Source of the DNA: Pseudomonas sp. B21-015
GTDB lineage: Bacteria > Pseudomonadota > Gammaproteobacteria > Pseudomonadales > Pseudomonadaceae
Assembly: GCF_024749285.1 (NCBI RefSeq)
Contig: NZ_CP087196.1
Coordinates: 3,782,001-3,846,000 of the forward strand
Length of the DNA: 64,000 nucleotides
Reading direction: 5' to 3'
Made by a program: the position numbers and the translations under genes. Below are positions 3,828-15,404 of this stretch, one piece after another. Every line of letters starts with the position of its first letter. The stretch's first letter is position 1. Under the pieces are notes generated by a model. The model saw nothing but the letters and a program-made list of their open reading frames with translations. It searched no databases and was not told where the DNA came from.

Positions 3828-4469
3828 TCAGCGACCCAGACTATCTGCCAATCTCCTGGCCTGCCGAGTCGCGGCTTCACGCGCACTGAGGTCAACGTCT
3901 TCCCCCTGGATGGTTTTCTCTACAATCACCGAGTGCACATCCGTCACGCCGATAAATTGCAGCCAGGCTTCCACGTAGGGCTTCTGAAAGTCGAAGCGCT
4001 CTGCCGGCGTGATCGACTGCGCCGAAAAATCCAGGCCACGGGCGTACATCACCACGGCGGTTTTGTTGTGCAGCATGCCTTCCAGACCGCGCTCCGGGTC
4101 GAAGCTGAACAGGATGTCTTTCTGCGACACCAGGTCGATGAAATGCTTGAGTTTGTACGGGATGCTGAAATTCCACAGCGGTACGGACATCACCAGCACA
4201 TCTGCGCTGTGCAGGTGAGCGGCCAGATCTTTCAGCGTATTCCAGGCGTCTTGTTGTACCGGGGTCAAGGGAGTGCCATTGAGTCCGGCGTATTTGGCCT
4301 CCATGGCCAGATCATTGAATTCCGGCAACGCCATGTTCCAAAGGTCGAGGGTGATGATTTCGGTGTCCGGGGTGTTTTCCTGATAGCGCGCAATGAAGCT
4401 GCGGGCGACTTCAAGGGAGGCTGAGCGCTGTTTGCGCGGGGAACATTCGATATGCAGAAGAGTAGTCAT
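3828..4469 (-). CDS. azoR: FMN-dependent NADH:quinone oxidoreductase / azoreductase
   Basis: A 213-residue flavodoxin-fold protein. Seen: the FMN-phosphate loop ECSPRKQRSASLEVARSF at residues 8-25, SVPLWNFSIPYKLKHFIDLV around residue 95, and the MYARGLDF block near 142, all hallmarks of the AzoR family. Known role: two-electron NADH-dependent reduction of quinones and azo dyes in the cytoplasm, protecting against thiol or electrophile stress. It is divergent from a LysR regulator with a palindrome between them, so it is probably that regulator's target. Its position upstream of chrBA suggests a link to oxidant stress, but this is inference. Confidence 0.92.
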   Translation of the reverse strand: MTTLLHIECSPRKQRSASLEVARSFIARYQENTPDTEIITLDLWNMALPEFNDLAMEAKYAGLNGTPLTPVQQDAWNTLKDLAAHLHSADVLVMSVPLWNFSIPYKLKHFIDLVSQKDILFSFDPERGLEGMLHNKTAVVMYARGLDFSAQSITPAERFDFQKPYVEAWLQFIGVTDVHSVIVEKTIQGEDVDLSAREAATRQARRLADSLGR

Positions 4470-4521
4470 GGCACGCCTCGGGTGGTGGGAGATTGGGGGG
4501 CGGCAAACATTGCAACATAGT

Positions 4522-4549
4522 TTTATTTGGAATATAAATCACAAATAAA
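4522..4549. promoter_or_regulatory. Candidate LysR operator between azoR and its regulator
   Basis: A perfect 8-bp inverted repeat, TTTATTTG and CAAATAAA, separated by 12 bases, lies in the AT-rich intergenic region between the divergent azoreductase and LysR genes. The arm spacing fits a LysR-type activation site. Function is inferred from position only. Confidence 0.45.
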
Positions 4550-4574
4550 TAAGCCATTAATCACAGATCAAACT

Positions 4575-5429
4575 ATGTTCGATACTTTGCTGCTCAAGAC
4601 ATTTGTCACGGTCGTCGATGAAGAAGGCTTCAGCCGTGCAGCCGAGAAACTGCACCTGACCCAGTCTGCGGTCAGTGGCCATGTGCGGCGACTGGAAGAA
4701 CAGATTGGTAAACCCCTGTTGAGGCGTACCACCCGTTCCCAGCAACTGACGCCCGATGGCGAGCGTCTGGTCGCTTATGCGCGCACGATCCTCGCGCTGA
4801 ACCGTGATGCCTGGGCAGAACTGACACGCACGCCGTTTCACGGGCGACTGCGGATCGGGGTATCCGAAGACTTCGTCGAATCGAGATTAATGCGCACTTT
4901 TCAGGATTTCGCGGCGCAGTACCCTGGGATGGAGATCGACGTGCAGGTGGGCATTCCGGGCATGTTGCTGGCCTTGATGAAGCAAGGGCATCTGGAGTTG
5001 GTCATCGGTTCTCTGTGCGAAACCAGCGACGCGGGGCTGCTGCTGTGGCAAGAACCACTGGTGTGGGCCTGGTCGGCGCAGCCCGTCACCCCGTTACCGA
5101 CGCCGTTGCCGCTGGCCCTGTTCCCCGAGCCATGCCCTTATCGCGAGATAGCGCTGACACGGCTGGCTCGGGCAGGGATCGCCCAACGAACGGCGATGTT
5201 GTGCAGCAGCACGGCCGGATTGCGAGCGGCGGCACTGGCTGGCTTCGCGGTAGCACCCATGCCAGTCAGTCAGTTGGGGCAAGGACTGGCGGTTCTTGGC
5301 GTAGAACAAGGATTGCCGGATTTGCCGGATGCGCAGTTTCGGTTGTTCAGCGCTCCTGAAGCGGATCAGGCGATTGTGGCAGCGGTCACTCAGCTCATTG
5401 TGGAGTACTGCTCCACGCGCAGGGCTTAA
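4575..5429 (+). CDS. LysR-family transcriptional regulator
   Basis: A 284-residue regulator. The N-terminal winged helix is clear: FDTLLLKTFVTVVDEEGFSR, AAEKLHLTQSAVSGHVRRLE, GKPLLRRTTRSQQLTPDGER. It is followed by a periplasmic-binding-like effector domain. I chose the ATG at 4575 because the family begins directly with this helix; a TTG at 4527 in the same frame lies inside the putative operator. It is divergent from azoR, the usual arrangement for an autoregulated LysR and its target. The inducer is unknown; quinones or electrophiles are a guess. Confidence 0.88.
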   Translation: MFDTLLLKTFVTVVDEEGFSRAAEKLHLTQSAVSGHVRRLEEQIGKPLLRRTTRSQQLTPDGERLVAYARTILALNRDAWAELTRTPFHGRLRIGVSEDFVESRLMRTFQDFAAQYPGMEIDVQVGIPGMLLALMKQGHLELVIGSLCETSDAGLLLWQEPLVWAWSAQPVTPLPTPLPLALFPEPCPYREIALTRLARAGIAQRTAMLCSSTAGLRAAALAGFAVAPMPVSQLGQGLAVLGVEQGLPDLPDAQFRLFSAPEADQAIVAAVTQLIVEYCSTRRA

Positions 5430-6927: not shown

Positions 6928-7147
6928 CAGGGGTGGACTCGGCTGATCTCGGACGGCACTGTCGTAAAACAGGCCACCAGCGCTGCTCGGCATCTGCGAT
7001 ACAGGGCCCTCATTGACCGGGCCAGTACCCTGAAGTTCCCGCTGCTACGGCCACTGCCGGGATCCGCAGGTCACCGCAACCGGTATCATTTTTTACCTGG
7101 AATTTTAAGCTGGTATCATTCAAGCACTGACAAACCGAGCAGAAAAT

Positions 7148-7309
7148 ATGAATCGTCGTAAAAAAATAAATCAGTTATTAAAGGCTAATGCCAAAAAGGC
7201 CAGCGCCAAATTGGCACCGAAAAGCAAGACTAAATACATTAGCAAAGCGGACCGATTGAAGCTGGCGGCTGAAGCCGGTCAGGACTCAACCATTTCCGCT
7301 GAGAGCTGA
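7148..7309 (+). CDS. DUF2986 small basic protein
   Basis: A 53-residue protein beginning MNRRKKINQLLKANAKKASA and ending in QDSTISAES. The run of Lys and Arg and the segment KYISKADRLKLAAEAG match the DUF2986 family of tiny proteobacterial proteins. Function is unknown; the basic N-terminus could contact nucleic acid or the ribosome. Two GGTATCATT copies 30 bases apart (7082 and 7112) sit in the upstream region, and an 11-bp inverted repeat follows the stop. Confidence 0.7.
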   Translation: MNRRKKINQLLKANAKKASAKLAPKSKTKYISKADRLKLAAEAGQDSTISAES

Positions 7310-7325
7310 TCTATGTGGCTTAAGC

Positions 7326-7370
7326 GCCATCGGAATTTACATATTTGATTGATGTATTCATTCCGATGGC
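7326..7370. repeat. Inverted repeat downstream of the DUF2986 gene
   Basis: Perfect 11-bp arms GCCATCGGAAT and ATTCCGATGGC are separated by 23 bases. The repeat lies just after the DUF2986 stop but lacks a T run. It could be a weak terminator or mRNA-stabilising hairpin. The gene-poor stretch 7310-7815 otherwise holds only the element described next. Confidence 0.4.
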
Positions 7371-7473
7371 ACGTAGCGCGAGGGAGCGGCCTGGCCATTT
7401 ATTCAAGCCGAAGCTGGTTCGCGGCTATGAATCCAGATTCCCCGGGTACATTTGACTGGACGCTTTTGGCCGA

Positions 7474-7647
7474 TTCTGTTGAAAAAGTCGGTTCGCCCAA
7501 AACGCTCGAATATTGATGGGTGAAAACACCTCTTTTGCACGCTGCTACGTCAAATCTGAGTCCAATCTCTTCTGCGCAAAACACGGACTTCAATCTCAGA
7601 CGCGTACTTTTCTGCCATGACTACCAAAGCCGACTTTTTCAACAGAA
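7474..7647. mobile_element. MITE-like element with 18-bp terminal inverted repeats
   Basis: The ends are perfect inverted copies: TTCTGTTGAAAAAGTCGG at 7474-7491 and its complement at 7630-7647. The 174-bp interior has no convincing gene. This looks like a non-autonomous transposable element or an IS internally deleted to its ends. The ends do not match the IS5 remnant or the IS66 element in this window, so the parent element is not here. No clear target duplication could be assigned. Confidence 0.5.
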
Positions 7648-7815
7648 CCCTTTGCAGACATTCATGACGTCCCGAGAGGGCAAAGCGAGCGGCTTGAACC
7701 ACTTGTTAGGCTGGAATGCTAAAGTTGGATTAGAACGGAGACTACGGATTTACTCTGTCGAAGGACACGAAGGACCATTTCAAGCTGGCTGTGCTGTCAT
7801 GCGAGGACCGCAACC

Positions 7816-8037
7816 ATGAGGTTTAGATTTGATCCATTCCAGATGCGCCCGCACCCCATTGCGTTGATCAATCGTGTGGAGCGCAGTCGAGTCGACAGGC
7901 TTTTCCGCGACTACGTCGAAGCAAGGTTCGCTTATGGACAGAGGACTTTGCCCTGTGCCATAGCGAGGTATTTCCGGCGTCGTGCGCGGCGCGATGCCCA
8001 TGAGGAAATGAAGCTCATCGAAGCATTACGCCACTGA
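7816..8037 (+). CDS. Small hypothetical protein, Arg-rich
   Basis: A 73-residue frame with ATG at 7816 and an upstream GAGGA. The sequence is basic (MRFRFDPFQMRPHPIALINR, then RYFRRRARRDAHEEMKLIEA). No family is recognised and no signal or membrane segment is seen. The ribosome site and the absence of a better overlapping frame support it modestly. Confidence 0.4.
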   Translation: MRFRFDPFQMRPHPIALINRVERSRVDRLFRDYVEARFAYGQRTLPCAIARYFRRRARRDAHEEMKLIEALRH

Positions 8038-8056
8038 CTGCAGTGCTGAAAGGAGC

Positions 8057-8308
8057 TTATGGCCATTGCACGTCGTATTTGGAAGAAAGTTCTTCAAGTA
8101 CCGCATTGCGAAGTTCGTCGCAGGCCCCTACATGGTCAAGATCGGGGCCACCATTGCTCATTGTGTCAATTTCCCAATTGCGTTCAGGAAAAGAGACTTT
8201 TCGTAGACGCTCGACTCTGCAAGTGCGAGCTTTATGTGGCCAACGACTCACCAATTCATTGTTGATCACATCAATAAGTTGAGCCTCGGGAATTTGCTGC
8301 TTTGCCAT
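8057..8308 (-). CDS. Conserved hypothetical protein
   Basis: An 83-residue protein with ATG at 8308 and ribosome site GGAGAG. Seen: MAKQQIPEAQLIDVINNELV, VERLRKVSFPERNWEIDTMS and DLDHVGACDELRNAVLEELS. It looks like a compact soluble alpha/beta protein. I recall similar short proteins in Pseudomonas and rhizobia without assigned function. It stands alone on the minus strand downstream of the tyrosinase-caspase operon, with a 144-bp gap, so co-transcription is possible but not shown. Confidence 0.55.
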   Translation of the reverse strand: MAKQQIPEAQLIDVINNELVSRWPHKARTCRVERLRKVSFPERNWEIDTMSNGGPDLDHVGACDELRNAVLEELSSKYDVQWP

Positions 8309-8452
8309 GACGAGCTCTCCGGTGATTTTTCCATGGAACACTTCATTCCGGCACTAGTCTCTCCGGCTACTTTTAGCCGACTCCTGCCTGCCACGTTCAT
8401 AGCCCCTCCCCCAAAAGCCGAAGTTAAAAACGCGACGTAGACGACCCTCGGC

Positions 8453-10444
8453 TCAACGCAACTGAAGTTTCCAAACCGCTGCAAGCTCATACGCAGCCTT
8501 ATCAGGCAACACCGTCGACCCACTACGACGAACCGTCCCGGCATGGTCGGCCAGCCCTTCGACGAGCGCAGCCCATTCCGGTCGCGGGTCTTTGACATAG
8601 TCCCAACCCAATCCCAGCCACGGGCATCGCCCACCGATCCAGGCCTGCACGGCCGGGGTCGCTTGCATGACGTAGTCAGGGAGCGCGGGTGCATCCGGTC
8701 GGGGTTGGCGCTCCTTGACGGCCGGCACGTGTAACTGCAGAGCGCCATTCACCTCGACGGTCACCTGCATCGCCCCGAGTAGCGCGATGTCAAAGGGCAC
8801 CGGCTGGCTATGGGCAACATAAAAATACGCCATGCGACGGATGCTGTCGTAGTCGGCAACGGCACGATACAGGTAGGCGCAAATCACACCCAACATGGGA
8901 TCAGCATGCTTTTGGTTCCGCAGGTCTGCGGCGAGCCGGTCGATGCTGTCGGCTCGAAGCCGGCCGGCGGCGAAATCGTCGATTGAACCGAGCATCCCTT
9001 GATAGCTCTCGGGAGCATTGCGCGTGCCATAGGCCTGGAAAACGTCGCCGGCGGTGCTGGGTGCCACGACGGCGTACAGGTCATCGTACGGAACGACCGG
9101 TGTAAATGTGCCATCGGCCAACTCGACCAACACCGGTATCCCCTGCGGATCGCCTTTGATGCGGAACGTCTCGAATCCGGGCGTTGCGCCGAGTCGCTCG
9201 ATCGGCTCCCGGGACAAAATCCTCGCTTGATTGCCCCAGACGATCACGTTCGCCCGGCCTGGATCGTTGACCTGCTCCAGCCTGCGCCGAACCTCTCCAG
9301 CCGCGGTCTTGCGGACATCGGCAGCCGCATCTGCCTCAAGCCGATGAACCAGTGCCTGTGCCTTTTGCGTTTTTTCAGGCGTGTGAGCGGTCTGGTGCCG
9401 CAGCTCAAACAAATCCTGGAGTAGTTCCTTACTGTCGTCGGGGATGGTGATGAAATGGTCCGCTGGAACCGCCAGATCACGCCCCTTGAAGCCAAAACCG
9501 GGGCCGAGAATTTGCTCCCGGAAATCCGTGTCGGTATGCACCCGCTCAAGAATTTGCTCGGCGGAACCCGGTGCGCCAGCCGCCTCGACCGCGCCCTGGG
9601 TGGTGGCATTCCCCGTACGCGGCCAGGGCTGCAACTCGGCAGCGCCCTGCAAGGGGCTTGCGGTGTTGTAGAGCACGGCCGGTTCCGGATCGACCAGGCA
9701 CTGCGGGTTGAGCTTCAGGCGATACTCTTTCGCGCGCTCGGTGGTGCGCGACCGCACGCATCTGCCCAATGTCTCCGTGGTGATCACACCATCGCTGATG
9801 GCGGCCGGCTCGATGCCCCAGAGCGCGTCGGCGATCACGCCAGAAAACACACACTTGCCCGGAGCGCCGGACATCGGATCAGACACCATATAGCCGAGTT
9901 GTCCGTCCTGGCAGGAGGCCAAGTGATCAAACCTGGGGCTGTCAACTTTCGTGCCCTGCACGACGATCCCGCGCACGGCATCAAGGCGCATCAACTCGAT
10001 ATTCCTCGGTGCTTCGCGACACGCATCGGTAATCAGCGTGATGCGCTGGACGCCGTGCAGTAACAACTCCTCGTAGAACCGGTCGGCACCAACACAGTAC
10101 TTCGAGCGCAGGGAATCGCTGAACAGCCACAAGATCGAGCCGAAATCCCCACTGGTGAGGCCATGACCGCAAAACGCCAGGATCAACTGCTCGACCACCT
10201 CGGCCCCGCTCGGAAACAGTTCATCGACCGCTTGCTGCACCCGCTCACGGGTGACTGGAATGTCGCCAGCGAGGCCATCGTCGACGATTCTTACGTTGCT
10301 GGCACCGAAGCCCGAGCCAAGCGCCCAGTCGCCAATTGAACGGGCGGCGAGCACGGCTCCGTCCAGGTACGCGAAGCGCAACGCCTGGTTTGAGGTCGGG
10401 GTCAGCGTGCTGACCCCGATCGCCAGACAGGCCCGCCTAGTCAT
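8453..10444 (-). CDS. Caspase-like (peptidase C14) protein
   Basis: A 663-residue protein with an N-terminal caspase/metacaspase fold. The catalytic dyad is visible: His94 in LAFCGHGLTSGDFG and Cys142 in LITDACREAPRN, each after a hydrophobic strand as in C14 peptidases. The remaining 450 or more residues match no domain I know; they include a charged helical stretch (HTPEKTQKAQALVHRLEADA) and a region of beta character. The start at 10444 overlaps the DUF2182 gene end by 8 bases, implying coupling. No signal peptide is convincing, so it is probably cytoplasmic. It is third gene of the tyrosinase-DUF2182-caspase operon; its substrate is unknown. Confidence 0.8.
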   Translation of the reverse strand: MTRRACLAIGVSTLTPTSNQALRFAYLDGAVLAARSIGDWALGSGFGASNVRIVDDGLAGDIPVTRERVQQAVDELFPSGAEVVEQLILAFCGHGLTSGDFGSILWLFSDSLRSKYCVGADRFYEELLLHGVQRITLITDACREAPRNIELMRLDAVRGIVVQGTKVDSPRFDHLASCQDGQLGYMVSDPMSGAPGKCVFSGVIADALWGIEPAAISDGVITTETLGRCVRSRTTERAKEYRLKLNPQCLVDPEPAVLYNTASPLQGAAELQPWPRTGNATTQGAVEAAGAPGSAEQILERVHTDTDFREQILGPGFGFKGRDLAVPADHFITIPDDSKELLQDLFELRHQTAHTPEKTQKAQALVHRLEADAAADVRKTAAGEVRRRLEQVNDPGRANVIVWGNQARILSREPIERLGATPGFETFRIKGDPQGIPVLVELADGTFTPVVPYDDLYAVVAPSTAGDVFQAYGTRNAPESYQGMLGSIDDFAAGRLRADSIDRLAADLRNQKHADPMLGVICAYLYRAVADYDSIRRMAYFYVAHSQPVPFDIALLGAMQVTVEVNGALQLHVPAVKERQPRPDAPALPDYVMQATPAVQAWIGGRCPWLGLGWDYVKDPRPEWAALVEGLADHAGTVRRSGSTVLPDKAAYELAAVWKLQLR

Positions 10445-11213
10445 GCGGGCGCGCCGCCTTTCGCGCAATGAGGACAGTGTAGAGGTCAAGTCGGGGGGAA
10501 ATCGCCGGCCAACGCCAGCGCGGCCGATCGGCTGGGGTGAGGCGTTCAGTCAGCATCATTGCACCTGCAAACAGCATGATCGGAATGTGCCACGCCCCGC
10601 CAAGCAGTGGCACCAGCATCCAGGCCCAACACGAAGCAATGCACCAGCCCCCATGCGTCATGCCGAAGATCAGGCAATCCCTGTCGGCAGCCCAGCCGAA
10701 GAGACCGATCCGCCGCATCCGGTGGCCACGATTGAGCGCCGCGCGGTGCCACGGGCTGGCACTCCACAGCGTCGCAATGAGCAGTGCACCGGCAAGCGCA
10801 GCCTCTGCGACGGTGAACTGCAACAACAGCGCGAGGACTGTCAGGATCGGTCCGGCGGCCATCCATAGCGCGCCGTAACCGAGCAGGAACCCGACTGACG
10901 CGCGCAGGCGTCTGCGTGGCAGGCTGGAGCGCCAGACATGCATGAGCGGCATTGCCAGCAAGGGCGGCATCATCGCGACAAGCATCAGCGCCCAGTCAGC
11001 CAGCAGGCGGTTCAGTGGATTCAAGGCGAACTCGGCCTCCAACACGGTGGGCCAGAGCGTGACGATAGACAGCCCCTCTACGGAACTGCAGAAGGTAGGG
11101 TGCGCAACGTTCCCGGCGTTGTAAACCGAAAGGGCCAGACCGAGCCCGGCCGTCGCGAAAAGCAACGGCCAAGGCGCCTGGGTGAAGTTGCGCAATACCG
11201 AACCTAGCTGCAT
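10437..11213 (-). CDS. DUF2182 predicted metal-binding membrane protein
   Basis: A 258-residue polytopic membrane protein with about six hydrophobic segments. The family hallmarks are present: LADWALMLVAMMPPLLAMPL around residue 75 and the Cys/His cluster DCLIFGMTHGGWCIASCWAW near 180. DUF2182 proteins are predicted metal-binding membrane proteins, often near copper or DUF1326 genes. Here it lies 10 bases after a copper enzyme gene and overlaps the caspase-like gene. A role in supplying or handling copper for the tyrosinase is an attractive inference. Confidence 0.82.
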   Translation of the reverse strand: MQLGSVLRNFTQAPWPLLFATAGLGLALSVYNAGNVAHPTFCSSVEGLSIVTLWPTVLEAEFALNPLNRLLADWALMLVAMMPPLLAMPLMHVWRSSLPRRRLRASVGFLLGYGALWMAAGPILTVLALLLQFTVAEAALAGALLIATLWSASPWHRAALNRGHRMRRIGLFGWAADRDCLIFGMTHGGWCIASCWAWMLVPLLGGAWHIPIMLFAGAMMLTERLTPADRPRWRWPAISPRLDLYTVLIARKAARPHD

Positions 11214-11223
11214 GAGCGGGTAC

Positions 11224-12705
11224 TCAACTCACGACGCCACTTCGCTTGAGAACGCTGATTCGGTCCACCGTCACGGGCTTGGCTTCCGATATCTGCTCGC
11301 CCGGAACGAGGGTCACACGCAAATGGTTTGGATCGAAGTCGCCAGCATCCGTCAGCCGCTGGGCCAGCTCGGTGATGTCGATCGTATAGCCAAGCCCGTT
11401 GCCGCCGTGGCCGCCGTCTGGCCGCGAGGCGACGTTCAGGCCGAACAGCGTCAGGCTGCCGGCATGGCACTCGGGATGGAGTTGCGGATCGACGCCTTCC
11501 GGCAGATTGACGTACACCTCCAGAAGAGGAGAAGGCGCGGAGCCGCGCACCGATTCAAGCGCCAGGTAAAGCCGGGTCACCTCCTTGCCCGCCTCCATGG
11601 CGCCCATCGCGGCGATGCCGGCGGTGGTGGCTTGCTGGTCGAGGTCGACCTGCGTGCGCACTGGCGCCCCGCCAACCCTGACGACCGATGCATTGGCACC
11701 GATTGGTTCGATGCTTTGTTGGTCCGGCGCACCCATTTTGACCCGTGCCACAGCCTCTGCTCCAGGTGTTACACCGGTGCCGATGCGCAAGTCAGCATAG
11801 CTACGGTGTAATTTGCCATCCTTCAGTGTGTCGCGGCCGGAGAACTTCATTCCAGGGGCCGCGCCGCCGGGCACCGGCATGATGAAGGTACGGTCAGCCG
11901 GACCGTTGAGCCAGCGTGGATCGCGAACCATCGTCTTGCCCGACGTGTTCATCCACGCTTCCCAGAGCCGGTCGATGTTGCAATGGTGCAACCAGAAGAT
12001 CGGGTCCAGGCCCGCCAGGTACGGATCGGCCATGAATCCCCTGTCGCCGCCGATCAGACGATGCACCGTATTGTGCGGGTTGTTCTCCAGATCGCCGGTC
12101 CAGCGGGCGAACTGAACGAAATCGCCGGTGACTCCGCCGCCGAAGCCGATGCTTCCATCATTGCCGACCTGGAAATCGTTCTCCTCCATGGCGGCAAGGC
12201 TGAACGCATCGCGTGGTCCCGGCCGCAAGGCAGTCAGCCCCTCTCGACGGGGATATTTGCTGAGCGGGTTTGGGCTGCCGTCGGGCAAGGTTTCTTCCAG
12301 GAAAGCATCCGGAACACGCCGCGCATCCGGGTTGCCGCTGTTGAGGTAGTTCCAGTACGGAAGCGCCCAATCTTCGCCGGTCAGCTCCTTCACTTTCGCG
12401 GCGACGATCGCCTCGAATGCAAACACATAGCCGCGGTGCCAGGAAAGGAAGTACCAGCTGCCGTGCTGGCACTGACTGCCGTATGTCTTGTTGGTGAGAT
12501 CCTGCGGAATCGGGTCGTCCTCACCGAGGACGTTCTCGTCAATCCACAATTGCCGATCGAACCCGTGGATGGCGCCCAGAAACTTCCAACTGTTGCGATC
12601 GGTTATCGGCAGCTTGTCCAGTTCGCGCATTGCCAGCGCATAGTTGAGCAAGACTTTGTTCCATCCGGAGCCAAGTGTCGCGACATCTTGTCGAGCCGTG
12701 TTCAT
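11224..12705 (-). CDS. Tyrosinase / polyphenol oxidase with plant-PPO-like C-terminal domain
   Basis: A 493-residue type-3 copper enzyme that would oxidise monophenols or diphenols to quinones. CuA ligands His47, His81 and His90 (AIHGF, CQHGSW, LSWHRGY) and CuB ligands His211, His215 and His240/241 (NPHNTVHR, DPIFWLHHCNIDRLW) are intact. Cys79-Gln-His81 is positioned for the Cys-His thioether seen in fungal enzymes. Residues from about 370 on (LEVYVNLPEGVDPQ, then LRVTLVPG) resemble the beta-sandwich tail of plant polyphenol oxidases. No signal peptide is seen. The ATG at 12705 follows AAGGGAGG. It is first gene of a three-gene operon. Confidence 0.88.
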   Translation of the reverse strand: MNTARQDVATLGSGWNKVLLNYALAMRELDKLPITDRNSWKFLGAIHGFDRQLWIDENVLGEDDPIPQDLTNKTYGSQCQHGSWYFLSWHRGYVFAFEAIVAAKVKELTGEDWALPYWNYLNSGNPDARRVPDAFLEETLPDGSPNPLSKYPRREGLTALRPGPRDAFSLAAMEENDFQVGNDGSIGFGGGVTGDFVQFARWTGDLENNPHNTVHRLIGGDRGFMADPYLAGLDPIFWLHHCNIDRLWEAWMNTSGKTMVRDPRWLNGPADRTFIMPVPGGAAPGMKFSGRDTLKDGKLHRSYADLRIGTGVTPGAEAVARVKMGAPDQQSIEPIGANASVVRVGGAPVRTQVDLDQQATTAGIAAMGAMEAGKEVTRLYLALESVRGSAPSPLLEVYVNLPEGVDPQLHPECHAGSLTLFGLNVASRPDGGHGGNGLGYTIDITELAQRLTDAGDFDPNHLRVTLVPGEQISEAKPVTVDRISVLKRSGVVS

Positions 12706-12980
12706 GAACGCACCCTCCCTTGCAGCATTTCGCTGGGGTGGCGACTGTGTCGTCACACCGATCGCAATCCTTTGCAGCTCACGACTTCATGTTGACGGCT
12801 GAACTGCGCTCACGAGGCCCGCTGAGTTGCGGTGACGCGTACCTCTGCGAAATTCAGTATAGAAGCTCGGCAAAAATGTCATCGTGAATTCACATGATAT
12901 TTGCCGCAAACGATGAACGGCGGTCAATGGGTGCAGGTACTGATGGAAGCGCTTCAAGGCTAAAGGTTTGGTGCAGAACC

Positions 12981-13081: not shown

Positions 13082-14983
13082 TTACATCTCAACCTGCGTG
13101 CCCAGCTCGATCACGCGATTGAGCGGCAACTTGAAGTATTTGAGGTTGCTGTTGGCGTTCTTCAGCAAAAACGCGAACAGGCTTTCGCGCCAACGGGCCA
13201 TGCCGATACGCTTGGTCGGAATGACCGTCTCGCGGCTAAGGAAATACGTGGTGCGCATCGGACTGAAATCCAGCTCTTTCAAATGGCACAGACTCAACGC
13301 CAGCGGTACGTCGGGCTCCTCCATAAAGCCGAAGTGCAAACTCACGCGAAAGAACCCTTCACCATAAGCCTCGATCTCGAATCGCCGATCCGCCGCCACA
13401 CGCGGGCTGTCTTCGGACACCACGGTGAGCAACACCACCTGCTCGTGCAGCACCTGGTTATGCAACAGGTTGTGCAACAGGGCATGAGGCACCGCATCAG
13501 TCCTGGCCGTCAGAAATACCGCGGTCCCCTGCACCCGATGAGGTGGTTGCGAGCCGATGCTGCTGATGAACAACGGCAGAGGCAGAGCGGTTTCGTCCAG
13601 TCGCTCGACCATGATCTTTCGACCGCGTTTCCAGGTGGTCATCAAAATGAACAGGGCAATACCGGCAATCACCGGGAATGCACCGCCCTGGAAGATCTTC
13701 GACGCATTGGCGGCGAAGTACAGGCTGTCCACTATGAGAAAACCCAACAGCATCGGAATGGCCAGCCAACGAGGGGTTTTCCACAGCAGCAATACGACGG
13801 CCGAGGACAGAATGGTGGTAATCAGCATGGTCCCCGTCACCGCCACGCCATAAGCCGCCGCCAACGCACTGGACGATTCAAAACCGATGACCAGCAACAC
13901 GACGCCAACCATCAGCGCCCAGTTCACGATGCCGATGTAGATCTGCCCCTGCTCCTGACTGGAGGTGTGCTGGATAAACATCCGGGGCACATAACCCAGC
14001 TGGATGGCCTGGCGAGTCAGTGAGAAGGCCCCGGAAATCACCGCCTGGGAGGCGATGATGGTGGCCAGTGTCGACAGTGCGACCATCGGCAGCAGCGCCC
14101 AGCCAGGTGCCAATAGATAGAACGGATTACGTACTGTTTCCGGGTTCTCGAGGATCAGCGCGCCTTGGCCAAAGTAGTTGAGTACCAAGCCCGGGAGCAC
14201 GAGGATGAACCAGGCACGCGCAATCGGTTTGCGACCAAAATGGCCCATGTCGGCATACAGCGCTTCAGCACCGGTCAATGCCAACACCACAGCCCCCAGA
14301 ATGGCCACGCCAATGCCCGGATGAAGCACAAAAAGTTGCACGGCCCAAGCAGGATTGAGCGCTTGCAGCACTTCCGGGCGTTGCAGGATGCCGTGAATAC
14401 CGAGTGCGCCCAACACCACAAACCACAGCACCATGACCGGGCCGAACAGAATGCCGATACGCGCCGTGCCATGTTTCTGGATCAGGAAAAGCGCTACCAG
14501 GATGACCACTGACAGCGGAACGACCCAATGCTCAATGCCATCGAACGCAAGCTGTAGCCCTTCAACCGCAGAGAGTACCGAGATGGCCGGGGTGATCATG
14601 CTGTCCCCGTAAAAAAGCGCCGCGCCAAACAGGCCGAGCAATACCAGCACCCAGCTCATTTTGGGATACGGTGCCGCGGCCCGACGTGCCAATGCCGTCA
14701 AAGCCATGATGCCTCCCTCGCCCTGGTTGTTGGCGCGCAGGATAAACAGCACGTACTTGATCGAGACGACCCAGATCAGTGACCAGAAGATCAACGACAG
14801 AATGCCCAGCACACCGTCTTGATTAGCCTGGACACCGTAGTGACCGGCGAACACTTCTTTGAGGGTGTAAAGCGGGCTGGTGCCAATATCCCCATAAACC
14901 ACGCCCACCGCGGCGACGAGCAAACCCACTCCCGAGGTTCTGGAATGGGTTTCTTCTTGGGCAGGGATCACTGTTTCACTCAC
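13082..14983 (-). CDS. kup: Kup potassium uptake transporter
   Basis: A 633-residue Kup/HAK/KUP-family K+:H+ symporter. Near the N-terminus [20 protein letters not shown] is the family signature, followed by about twelve membrane helices including [19 protein letters not shown] and [21 protein letters not shown] cytosolic C-terminal domain of about 170 residues ends [12 protein letters not shown] place the start at the GTG at 14983, preceded by AGAGAAG; upstream residues in the same frame do not fit the family. It stands alone as a minus-strand gene. Confidence 0.93.
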
Positions 14984-15404
14984 GGGTAACTTCTCTGAAA
15001 TTGAGAGGAAGAAATTGCATGCCCCTTCGGGCAAGAGGGGTTGCGGGGTCACGGGGTTGGCGTTTCGACTCGGCTGCCATGAGCTCCAACAACTTGATAA
15101 TGAGATTAGCCCATTGCGTTGTCATGCCGTCCGGCAAAAGGTCACTGCCCCAGAGAAACAACGACGCTGAACCCCTCAGGTCAACCAGGGGACGAAGGCG
15201 TGCAGGCCTGTCGATGATCAAAAAAACGCGGCAAGTATCGTCGCGGGGGAGAATATCTACCGTAAAGAAACCGTAAAAAAGCACGGGCAAGCCCGAATAC
15301 CAGGCAGTTACGCTTCCACAGGTTCTGCGGCTTAACTGACTGGCGGGTGAAGCCCCATCAAATTTCTTGTGCGCCAAGCAGACCATAACCGAGGCGTTTC
15401 CCAC
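14984..15404. other. Upstream region of kup, no gene recognised
   Basis: This 420-bp stretch between kup and the SleB-like gene contains no reading frame with family support. It presumably holds the kup promoter and leader. No riboswitch or operator was recognised by eye. Confidence 0.5.

Follow-up and report, generated by a model that had tools for sequence, protein, structure and literature searches.

In Marinomonas mediterranea, the second gene of a tyrosinase operon encodes PpoB2, a protein with a part in transferring copper to the tyrosinase (PMC2855505). Polyphenol oxidases (PPOs) that retain their C-terminal domain usually show very little activity or none (PMC11608171), and in insects a dedicated serine proteinase, which belongs to a cascade, activates prophenoloxidase by limited proteolysis (PMC11818254). 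A bacterial caspase-like protease is known to cut an autoinhibited neighbour, gasdermin (PMC9079055, a commentary on Johnson et al.), and the caspase domains of VMAPs, as Kaur et al. (2020, PMC7159879) describe them, always have a neighbouring alpha/beta-hydrolase gene; neither "tyrosinase" nor "polyphenol" occurs in the latter text. Here, we describe a locus in a 64,000-nucleotide stretch of Pseudomonas sp. B21-015 (contig NZ_CP087196.1, positions 3,782,001 to 3,846,000; hereafter the window, from whose first letter coordinates are counted) in which the genes for a tyrosinase (TYR), a membrane copper chaperone (PpoB2) and a caspase-like protein (CASP) are packed together. Our favoured reading, to which we give a probability of roughly 0.4, is that the caspase controls, and most likely activates, a copper-loaded pro-tyrosinase in a self-contained cassette. 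A literature search of open-licence PMC text returned no report that combines DUF2182, tyrosinase and caspase, which is no proof of absence.

A conserved three-gene cassette

All three open reading frames (ORFs) are intact and lie on the minus strand, as do all features of the cassette given below. In transcription order they are TYR (12705-11224, 493 aa), a type 3 copper tyrosinase or polyphenol oxidase; PpoB2 (11213-10437, 258 aa), a DUF2182 membrane copper chaperone by its PF09948 match (E 6e-25); and CASP (10444-8453, 663 aa), called from homologue search, alignment and structure model. A sequence-only reading of this DNA had noted the tight packing, with a 10-bp gap between the first two genes and an 8-bp overlap between the last two (10437..10444, ATGACTAG), and the inspected ORFs bear this out. 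A GGAGG beside the TYR ATG is conserved in 7/7 aligned upstream stretches and sequence farther upstream is not, for which reason we place the TYR start at the ATG at 12705 and not at the mechanically called GTG at 12756. A promoter scan gave 0 sites, compared with a mean of 1.2 in shuffles.

The gene order is not limited to this strain, a point on which the earlier reading had made its proposal depend. We opened eight distinct loci with a close full-length CASP homologue (the window, L004, L005, L006, L007, L020, L021 and L030; L022 is apparently the same record as L005), and all eight keep the order TYR-PpoB2-CASP together with an overlap of the form ATGnnTAG, in which CASP starts and PpoB2 ends, the first gap ranging from 10 to 16 bp. 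Chance adjacency was rejected on these grounds. Seven of the triads are from Pseudomonas, and the eighth lies on a Mesorhizobium plasmid (L030, NZ_CP080523.1), where the deposited caspase start falls downstream of the conserved overlapping ATG (8977-9043) and is likely annotated too short. When the first 24 kb of the window were compared at the DNA level, L005, L006 and L020 matched about the cassette only, the similarity to L005 taking in the stretch upstream of TYR (12706..12898), and L021 matched part of the cassette (9662-12723). In L004, which is very closely related, the similarity extends into the flanks as well, and L007 matches in its proteins but not in its DNA. Because the similarity is otherwise confined to about the cassette, the triad stands at different genomic places and is probably a self-contained unit that moved as a block.

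A protein search that scored the best-sharing 7,993 candidates found 110 CASP homologues, with names including Pseudomonas, Bradyrhizobium, Mesorhizobium, Blastomonas, Roseibium and Anderseniella. When CASP and tyrosinase clusters were tied by exactly equal size of their longest contigs, an indirect criterion for which no chance expectation was computed, at least 48 of the 110 CASP clusters found a partner among the 120 tyrosinase clusters listed out of 1,672. On contigs of at least 10 kb, 30 of 59 CASP clusters had no counterpart among the tyrosinase clusters listed; unmatched clusters may reflect a representative-contig effect or real absence. CASP and TYR protein distances correlated at r 0.894 over 53 pairs (the 48 contig-tied pairs plus the window, L005, L006, L007 and L021), the best of 2000 permutations reaching 0.44. 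The cassette is sparsely distributed: a full-length caspase-plus-tail occurs in 7 of 398 Pseudomonas genomes, four times in a triad (G000, G029, G257 and G371) and three times with an alpha/beta hydrolase (G007, G271 and G316). In the rest of the 52 genomes with any CASP match, the matches are partial, lie almost always in the N-terminal third and belong to other caspases. A survey of 398 genomes from across the phylum yielded a close homologue in the strain's own genome only and distant ones in four more. Twelve plasmid records have a CASP match, and the five opened comprise one triad and four hydrolase pairs.

A lid-bearing tyrosinase and a diverged caspase with different partners

The first gene had been called a type 3 copper oxidase from the sequence alone, and matches to PF00264 and PF25271 (DUF7868), together with the structure model, confirm this. 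In the catalytic domain (11947..12594), H47, H81, H90, H211, H215, H240, H241, C79 and E207 are invariant in an 81-sequence alignment (493-aa numbering) and N212 is nearly so; by our own position assignment, E207 and N212 would correspond to the water-keeper glutamate and the HisB1+1 controller of PMC11608171. The C-terminal DUF7868 domain (11245..11712) is predicted, from Pfam and from the fold match, to sit at the place of the active-site lid in latent PPOs. The TYR model (mean pLDDT, the predicted confidence score, 93.8) has as its best PDB match the Hahella tyrosinase 8B74 (TMq 0.75), which is listed as T-L, tyrosinase plus lid domain (PMC11608171), followed by latent aurone synthase, latent apple tyrosinase and a Ralstonia tyrosinase (TMq about 0.6-0.66), and it aligns with lid-bearing PPOs over most of its length. 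With both the copper-site histidines and a fold with a C-terminal lid, TYR looks to have the architecture of a latent, lid-bearing polyphenol oxidase and would on this likeness be latent itself. No signal peptide was seen in TYR by eye.

The family of the second gene, PF09948, is now named PpoB2 "Copper chaperone", and a tyrosinase gene adjoining a PF09948 membrane chaperone gene is the arrangement of a PpoB-type tyrosinase operon. TYR and PpoB2 are thus an already known pair, and the caspase is the new element. The suggestion that the membrane protein supplies copper gains support by analogy to M. mediterranea PpoB2 (PMC2855505), and copper loading of the present enzyme is probable to that extent.

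The first 261 residues of CASP (9662..10444) are predicted to adopt a caspase fold: in a PDB search with the whole model, every match at E 0.001 or better has a caspase-like or legumain-like fold, and fold matches cover these residues. Over 110 homologues (including the window's own cluster, P0001), the catalytic His94 (10163..10165) is present in 108/108 aligned residues with 2 gaps, and Cys142 (10019..10021), in the context D140-A-C, in 109/109 with 1 gap. The dyad reported earlier as intact is therefore invariant although identity to the window drops to about 31%, and the prospect that Cys and His might vary among homologues did not materialize. The Asp two residues before Cys142 (D140) is likewise invariant (109/109), which we take to be the pattern of basic-specific relatives. 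CASP matches 0 Pfam families at E up to 1, and since a PF00656 search of the whole genome finds no match at E 0.001, it escapes the standard caspase model; among the hydrolase-paired relatives treated below, L031 and L028 pass the PF00656 cut-off and L023 and L026 fail it. In PADLOC, CASP has only a weak match, to the generic "caspase" model. We conclude that CASP is a diverged caspase fold and no catalogued C14 member.

The tail, residues 264-663 (8453..9655), is delimited by alignment and structure model and is predicted to consist of a variable linker and a helical hairpin, then a strand-rich region, then a helical region. Residues 281-290, in the linker to the tail, have a mean pLDDT of 43. 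The earlier reading could not assign this part; no Pfam match was found for residues 395-663, nor any family across five tails scanned piecewise, and what has emerged is that the tail is common to hydrolase-paired caspases. Among 97 homologues of one divergent tail, from a search that could find only proteins 0.55-1.75 times the query length, 80 carry PF00656, 17 have no Pfam domain and none carries another domain. Residues 291-313 (9506-9574), the helical hairpin in the model, have the consensus LER...D..FR...LG..FG, a pattern reminiscent of the leader-peptide motifs found in modified peptides; the likeness is not backed by any Pfam match.

The relatives that pair with a hydrolase were examined at eleven distant loci (L023-L029 and four of the eleven non-triad plasmid records, L031-L034, of which L031 and L034 are near-copies). 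In all eleven, an alpha/beta hydrolase with an HSLG elbow stands next to the caspase, and an alignment of eight of them shows that the caspase part and the tail are both common to triads and distant loci; the same hydrolase profile found nothing in the seven triad loci searched (L004-L007, L020, L021 and L030). In a caspase tree of 42 rows, a branch with 100/99 support divides the 25 labelled tyrosinase-paired from the others, 19 of these labels being verified (16 contig-tied, 3 opened loci) and six resting on similarity (P0021, P0047, P0056, P0076, P0079 and P0085); long branches among the distant rows leave their inner order unsure. One caspase-plus-tail architecture thus has different enzyme partners. 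The hydrolase-caspase pairing is not new, because Kaur et al. 2020 (PMC7159879) describe it for VMAPs.

Several of these pairs have features of their own. At L027 (5464-8438), both genes are broken and the pair appears to be a decayed copy, adjoining what looks by eye like a trypsin-like gene (8608-9744). At L028, the N termini of caspase (7089-9116) and hydrolase (9191-10156) are both twin-arginine-like by eye (RRTFLE, inside the mechanical ORF, and RRDVLR), as if the two were co-exported. The plasmid-borne pairs lie on plasmids typed as conjugative from plant-associated Rhizobiaceae, namely Ti plasmids (L031 and L034) and rhizobial plasmids (L032 and L033).

Proposed control of the tyrosinase and the competing explanations

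That the protease acts on the oxidase had been raised as a possibility from the sequence alone. Conservation of the cassette, the predicted latent-type fold of TYR and the swap of partner to a hydrolase favour it; the linker considered below counts against it. In the favoured reading, the PpoB2-type membrane chaperone would load copper into TYR, as its Marinomonas counterpart suggests, and CASP, whose gene overlaps that of PpoB2 as in translational coupling, would be held idle by its tail or sense a signal through it. Once triggered, CASP would cut TYR between catalytic domain and lid, or free the lid, and the unlocked enzyme would convert phenols to quinones and melanin, resulting possibly in harm to the cell or an invader, or in a melanin barrier. 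Since an alpha/beta hydrolase takes the place of the tyrosinase beside this caspase-plus-tail at other loci, the protease and its tail would supply the constant control and the adjacent enzyme would be an exchangeable effector. A constant protease-plus-tail with exchangeable enzymes is the most economical view, and for the tyrosinase the lid is the obvious switch. A more ambitious form of this proposal, which we hold only tentatively and think rather unlikely, is a bacterial prophenoloxidase cascade in which a sensor-tailed caspase-type protease unlocks a copper-loaded pro-tyrosinase and the quinones either kill a cell that is infected or under attack or seal it off. If so, the tyrosinase would be one of several effectors armed by a single caspase-plus-tail module, and the insect protease-prophenoloxidase arrangement would have been reinvented with a caspase.

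A number of results weigh against activation by cleavage. The candidate cleavage region is part of the TYR inter-domain linker, residues 303-330 (11716..11799), and residues 311-320 are the model's least confident block. In the caspase-linked clade, the linker carries the motif GTGVTPG...VARV.MG....Q, with G309 and G325 at 100% and T310, G311, M324 and Q330 at 97-98% among 121 members; it was not found in 11 outgroup enzymes, to which the alignment is gappy, so that its clade specificity rests partly on the alignment. A specific cut site was sought in this region and not found: residues 303-330 include no invariant Arg, Lys or Asp, R321 reaches 74%, and 27 of the 121 members have no Arg/Lys at 316-323. 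Eleven have none at 312-331 either, four of them contig-linked to a caspase, and the Arg/Lys frequency at these positions (8.3%) is near the protein mean (8.4%). D304 is Asp in 92% but Ala in the window, and D292, just before the linker, is Asp in 95%. R272, which lies between the domains but within a structured stretch, does not vary in the clade; as it is also present in 9/11 outgroup enzymes, it is not a mark of the caspase. The absence of an invariant basic or acidic linker residue is the chief result opposing a simple cut-after-Arg model. The linker motif is also kept in 4/4 sequences of the lineage that appears to have lost the caspase (two of the four loci were opened).

The distribution of the tyrosinase adds to these difficulties. 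A related tyrosinase (E up to 1e-40) occurs in 17 of 398 Pseudomonas genomes, four of them with triads, and we opened stretches of 9.6-16 kb at the 13 others, 11 of which are distant (39-43% identity) and 2 close (73%). In 13/13, PpoB2 lies next to TYR and there is no caspase of the CASP family, and these enzymes span the lid region too; the tyrosinase-chaperone pair is a wider unit than the triad. In a tyrosinase tree of 136 rows, a fully supported branch separates the 11 distant enzymes from all other rows, and the two close ones are nested deep in the caspase-linked clade, as expected from loss. Set against the rows of other groups, the caspase label requires 19 changes, at least 12 of them forced, which gives no clean single gain, mostly because 23 rows come from contigs of at least 10 kb without a CASP-cluster match, some of which may be real absences. 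The corresponding count is 23 of the 52 listed tyrosinase clusters on such contigs, and shared species history may contribute to the correlation of CASP and TYR distances. A candidate caspase remnant at L053, a 58-residue tblastn match (E 1.4e-4), falls on a LuxR-type ORF and was taken as chance.

These difficulties leave room for other arrangements of the same parts. The caspase could itself be the effector, or cut other cell proteins, with the tyrosinase upstream and phenol oxidation or quinone damage as the trigger sensed through the tail. We consider this doubtful, but the tail, being common to caspases with quite different neighbours, need not recognise TYR, no clear cleavage site is seen in the TYR linker, and an orthocaspase, MaOC1, that cuts the antitoxin of a neighbouring module is known (PMC7935541). 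Against it, the type of enzyme next door varies and the caspase does not, a pattern more in keeping with a control part than with a shared trigger, and TYR has a latent architecture. Somewhat less probable, and in our view unlikely, is that the protease limits the system by removing unloaded, misfolded or quinone-damaged TYR or PpoB2, and so serves turnover or quality control in an operon for melanin formation or phenol detoxification. Proteases of the caspase fold generally cleave in a limited way, and tyrosinase quality control would hardly explain why the caspase-plus-tail also stands next to an unrelated hydrolase. Turnover would, however, agree with the 13 other Pseudomonas loci opened, where TYR and PpoB2 stand without an adjacent caspase and which mark the protease as an addition to the pair, as expected of a regulator, and with the self-activation of some plant and fungal PPOs (PMC11608171).

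CASP might also bind and not cut, its tail or caspase fold serving as an inhibitor or adaptor of TYR and its proteolysis being auto-processing. The long conserved tail on a variable, low-confidence linker (residues 281-290) would offer a plausible place for self-cleavage; invariance of His94 and Cys142 in all aligned homologues argues that catalysis matters and is still compatible with self-cleavage, and we rate this explanation as distinctly improbable. Mere co-inheritance of neighbours without functional coupling would suit the sparse distribution (7 of 398 Pseudomonas genomes, 4 triads), but order and overlap are kept from Pseudomonas to the Mesorhizobium plasmid while the flanks differ, which makes it very improbable indeed.

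Genomic surroundings and relation to known systems

A role in defence or cell death, mentioned in the sequence-only reading, found no backing. PADLOC gave no match for TYR and none for PpoB2, and a reading by eye of the ORFs that flank six triad loci, made without a family search, brought out no defence neighbourhood that recurs. A phage-borne origin was rejected, as CASP has no match in 50,697 phage records and none of four pattern-matching stretches on viral contigs was confirmed. Among the neighbouring genes, a kup potassium transporter (window 13082-15052) adjoins the cassette and has a second genomic copy (C1:5192356-5194221) that is 81% identical. No clean empty site was found: the three kup-bearing relatives L115-L117 share no other neighbour with the first 24 kb of the window except a weak LysR-type match in L115 (28% identity). 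About 3-4 kb beyond the cassette lie an azoreductase-like gene, by eye a possible quinone reductase, and a divergent LysR-type regulator (window 3828-5429); this region is common to the window and L004 and has no DNA match in the examined flanks of L005, L006, L007, L020 and L021. At L020, what looks by eye like a ParD-like/ParE-like toxin-antitoxin pair (9788-10482) stands just past the caspase.

The cassette joins two pieces that have usually been studied separately, lid-bearing tyrosinases, for which the protease that activates them in nature has often not been identified, and caspases of bacteria, of which few targets are known, and its fixed protease with an exchangeable enzyme partner makes the three genes a small, directly testable system for both. 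If activation proves true, redox poisons would join the short list of caspase-controlled bacterial effectors. As in the ppoB1-ppoB2 operon of M. mediterranea (PMC2855505), a tyrosinase gene is followed by one for a PpoB2/COG5486 membrane copper chaperone; in that operon PpoB2 is the second gene, and the passages that describe it mention no protease, whereas here a caspase gene overlaps the chaperone gene. The alpha/beta-hydrolase-caspase pairs of the MoxR-vWA/VMAP conflict systems (PMC7159879) likewise set a caspase domain beside a neighbouring enzyme gene, and our hydrolase-paired relatives look like them; in the triads, by contrast, the partner is a tyrosinase with its chaperone, and the tails scanned have no Pfam match. 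Among bacterial systems, the gasdermin-caspase pair (PMC9079055) is the nearest precedent. In it, a caspase-like protease also stands beside a protein held inactive until cut, but the cassette has no gasdermin and the target proposed here is a copper oxidase and no pore former, the operon partners being tyrosinase and PpoB2 by Pfam in this and the other triads. The nearest functional analogy is insect prophenoloxidase (PMC11818254), which shares with TYR and the latent PPOs (PMC11608171) a phenol oxidase with a lid and differs in its activator, a serine proteinase in insects and, as we propose, a caspase-type protease in these bacteria.

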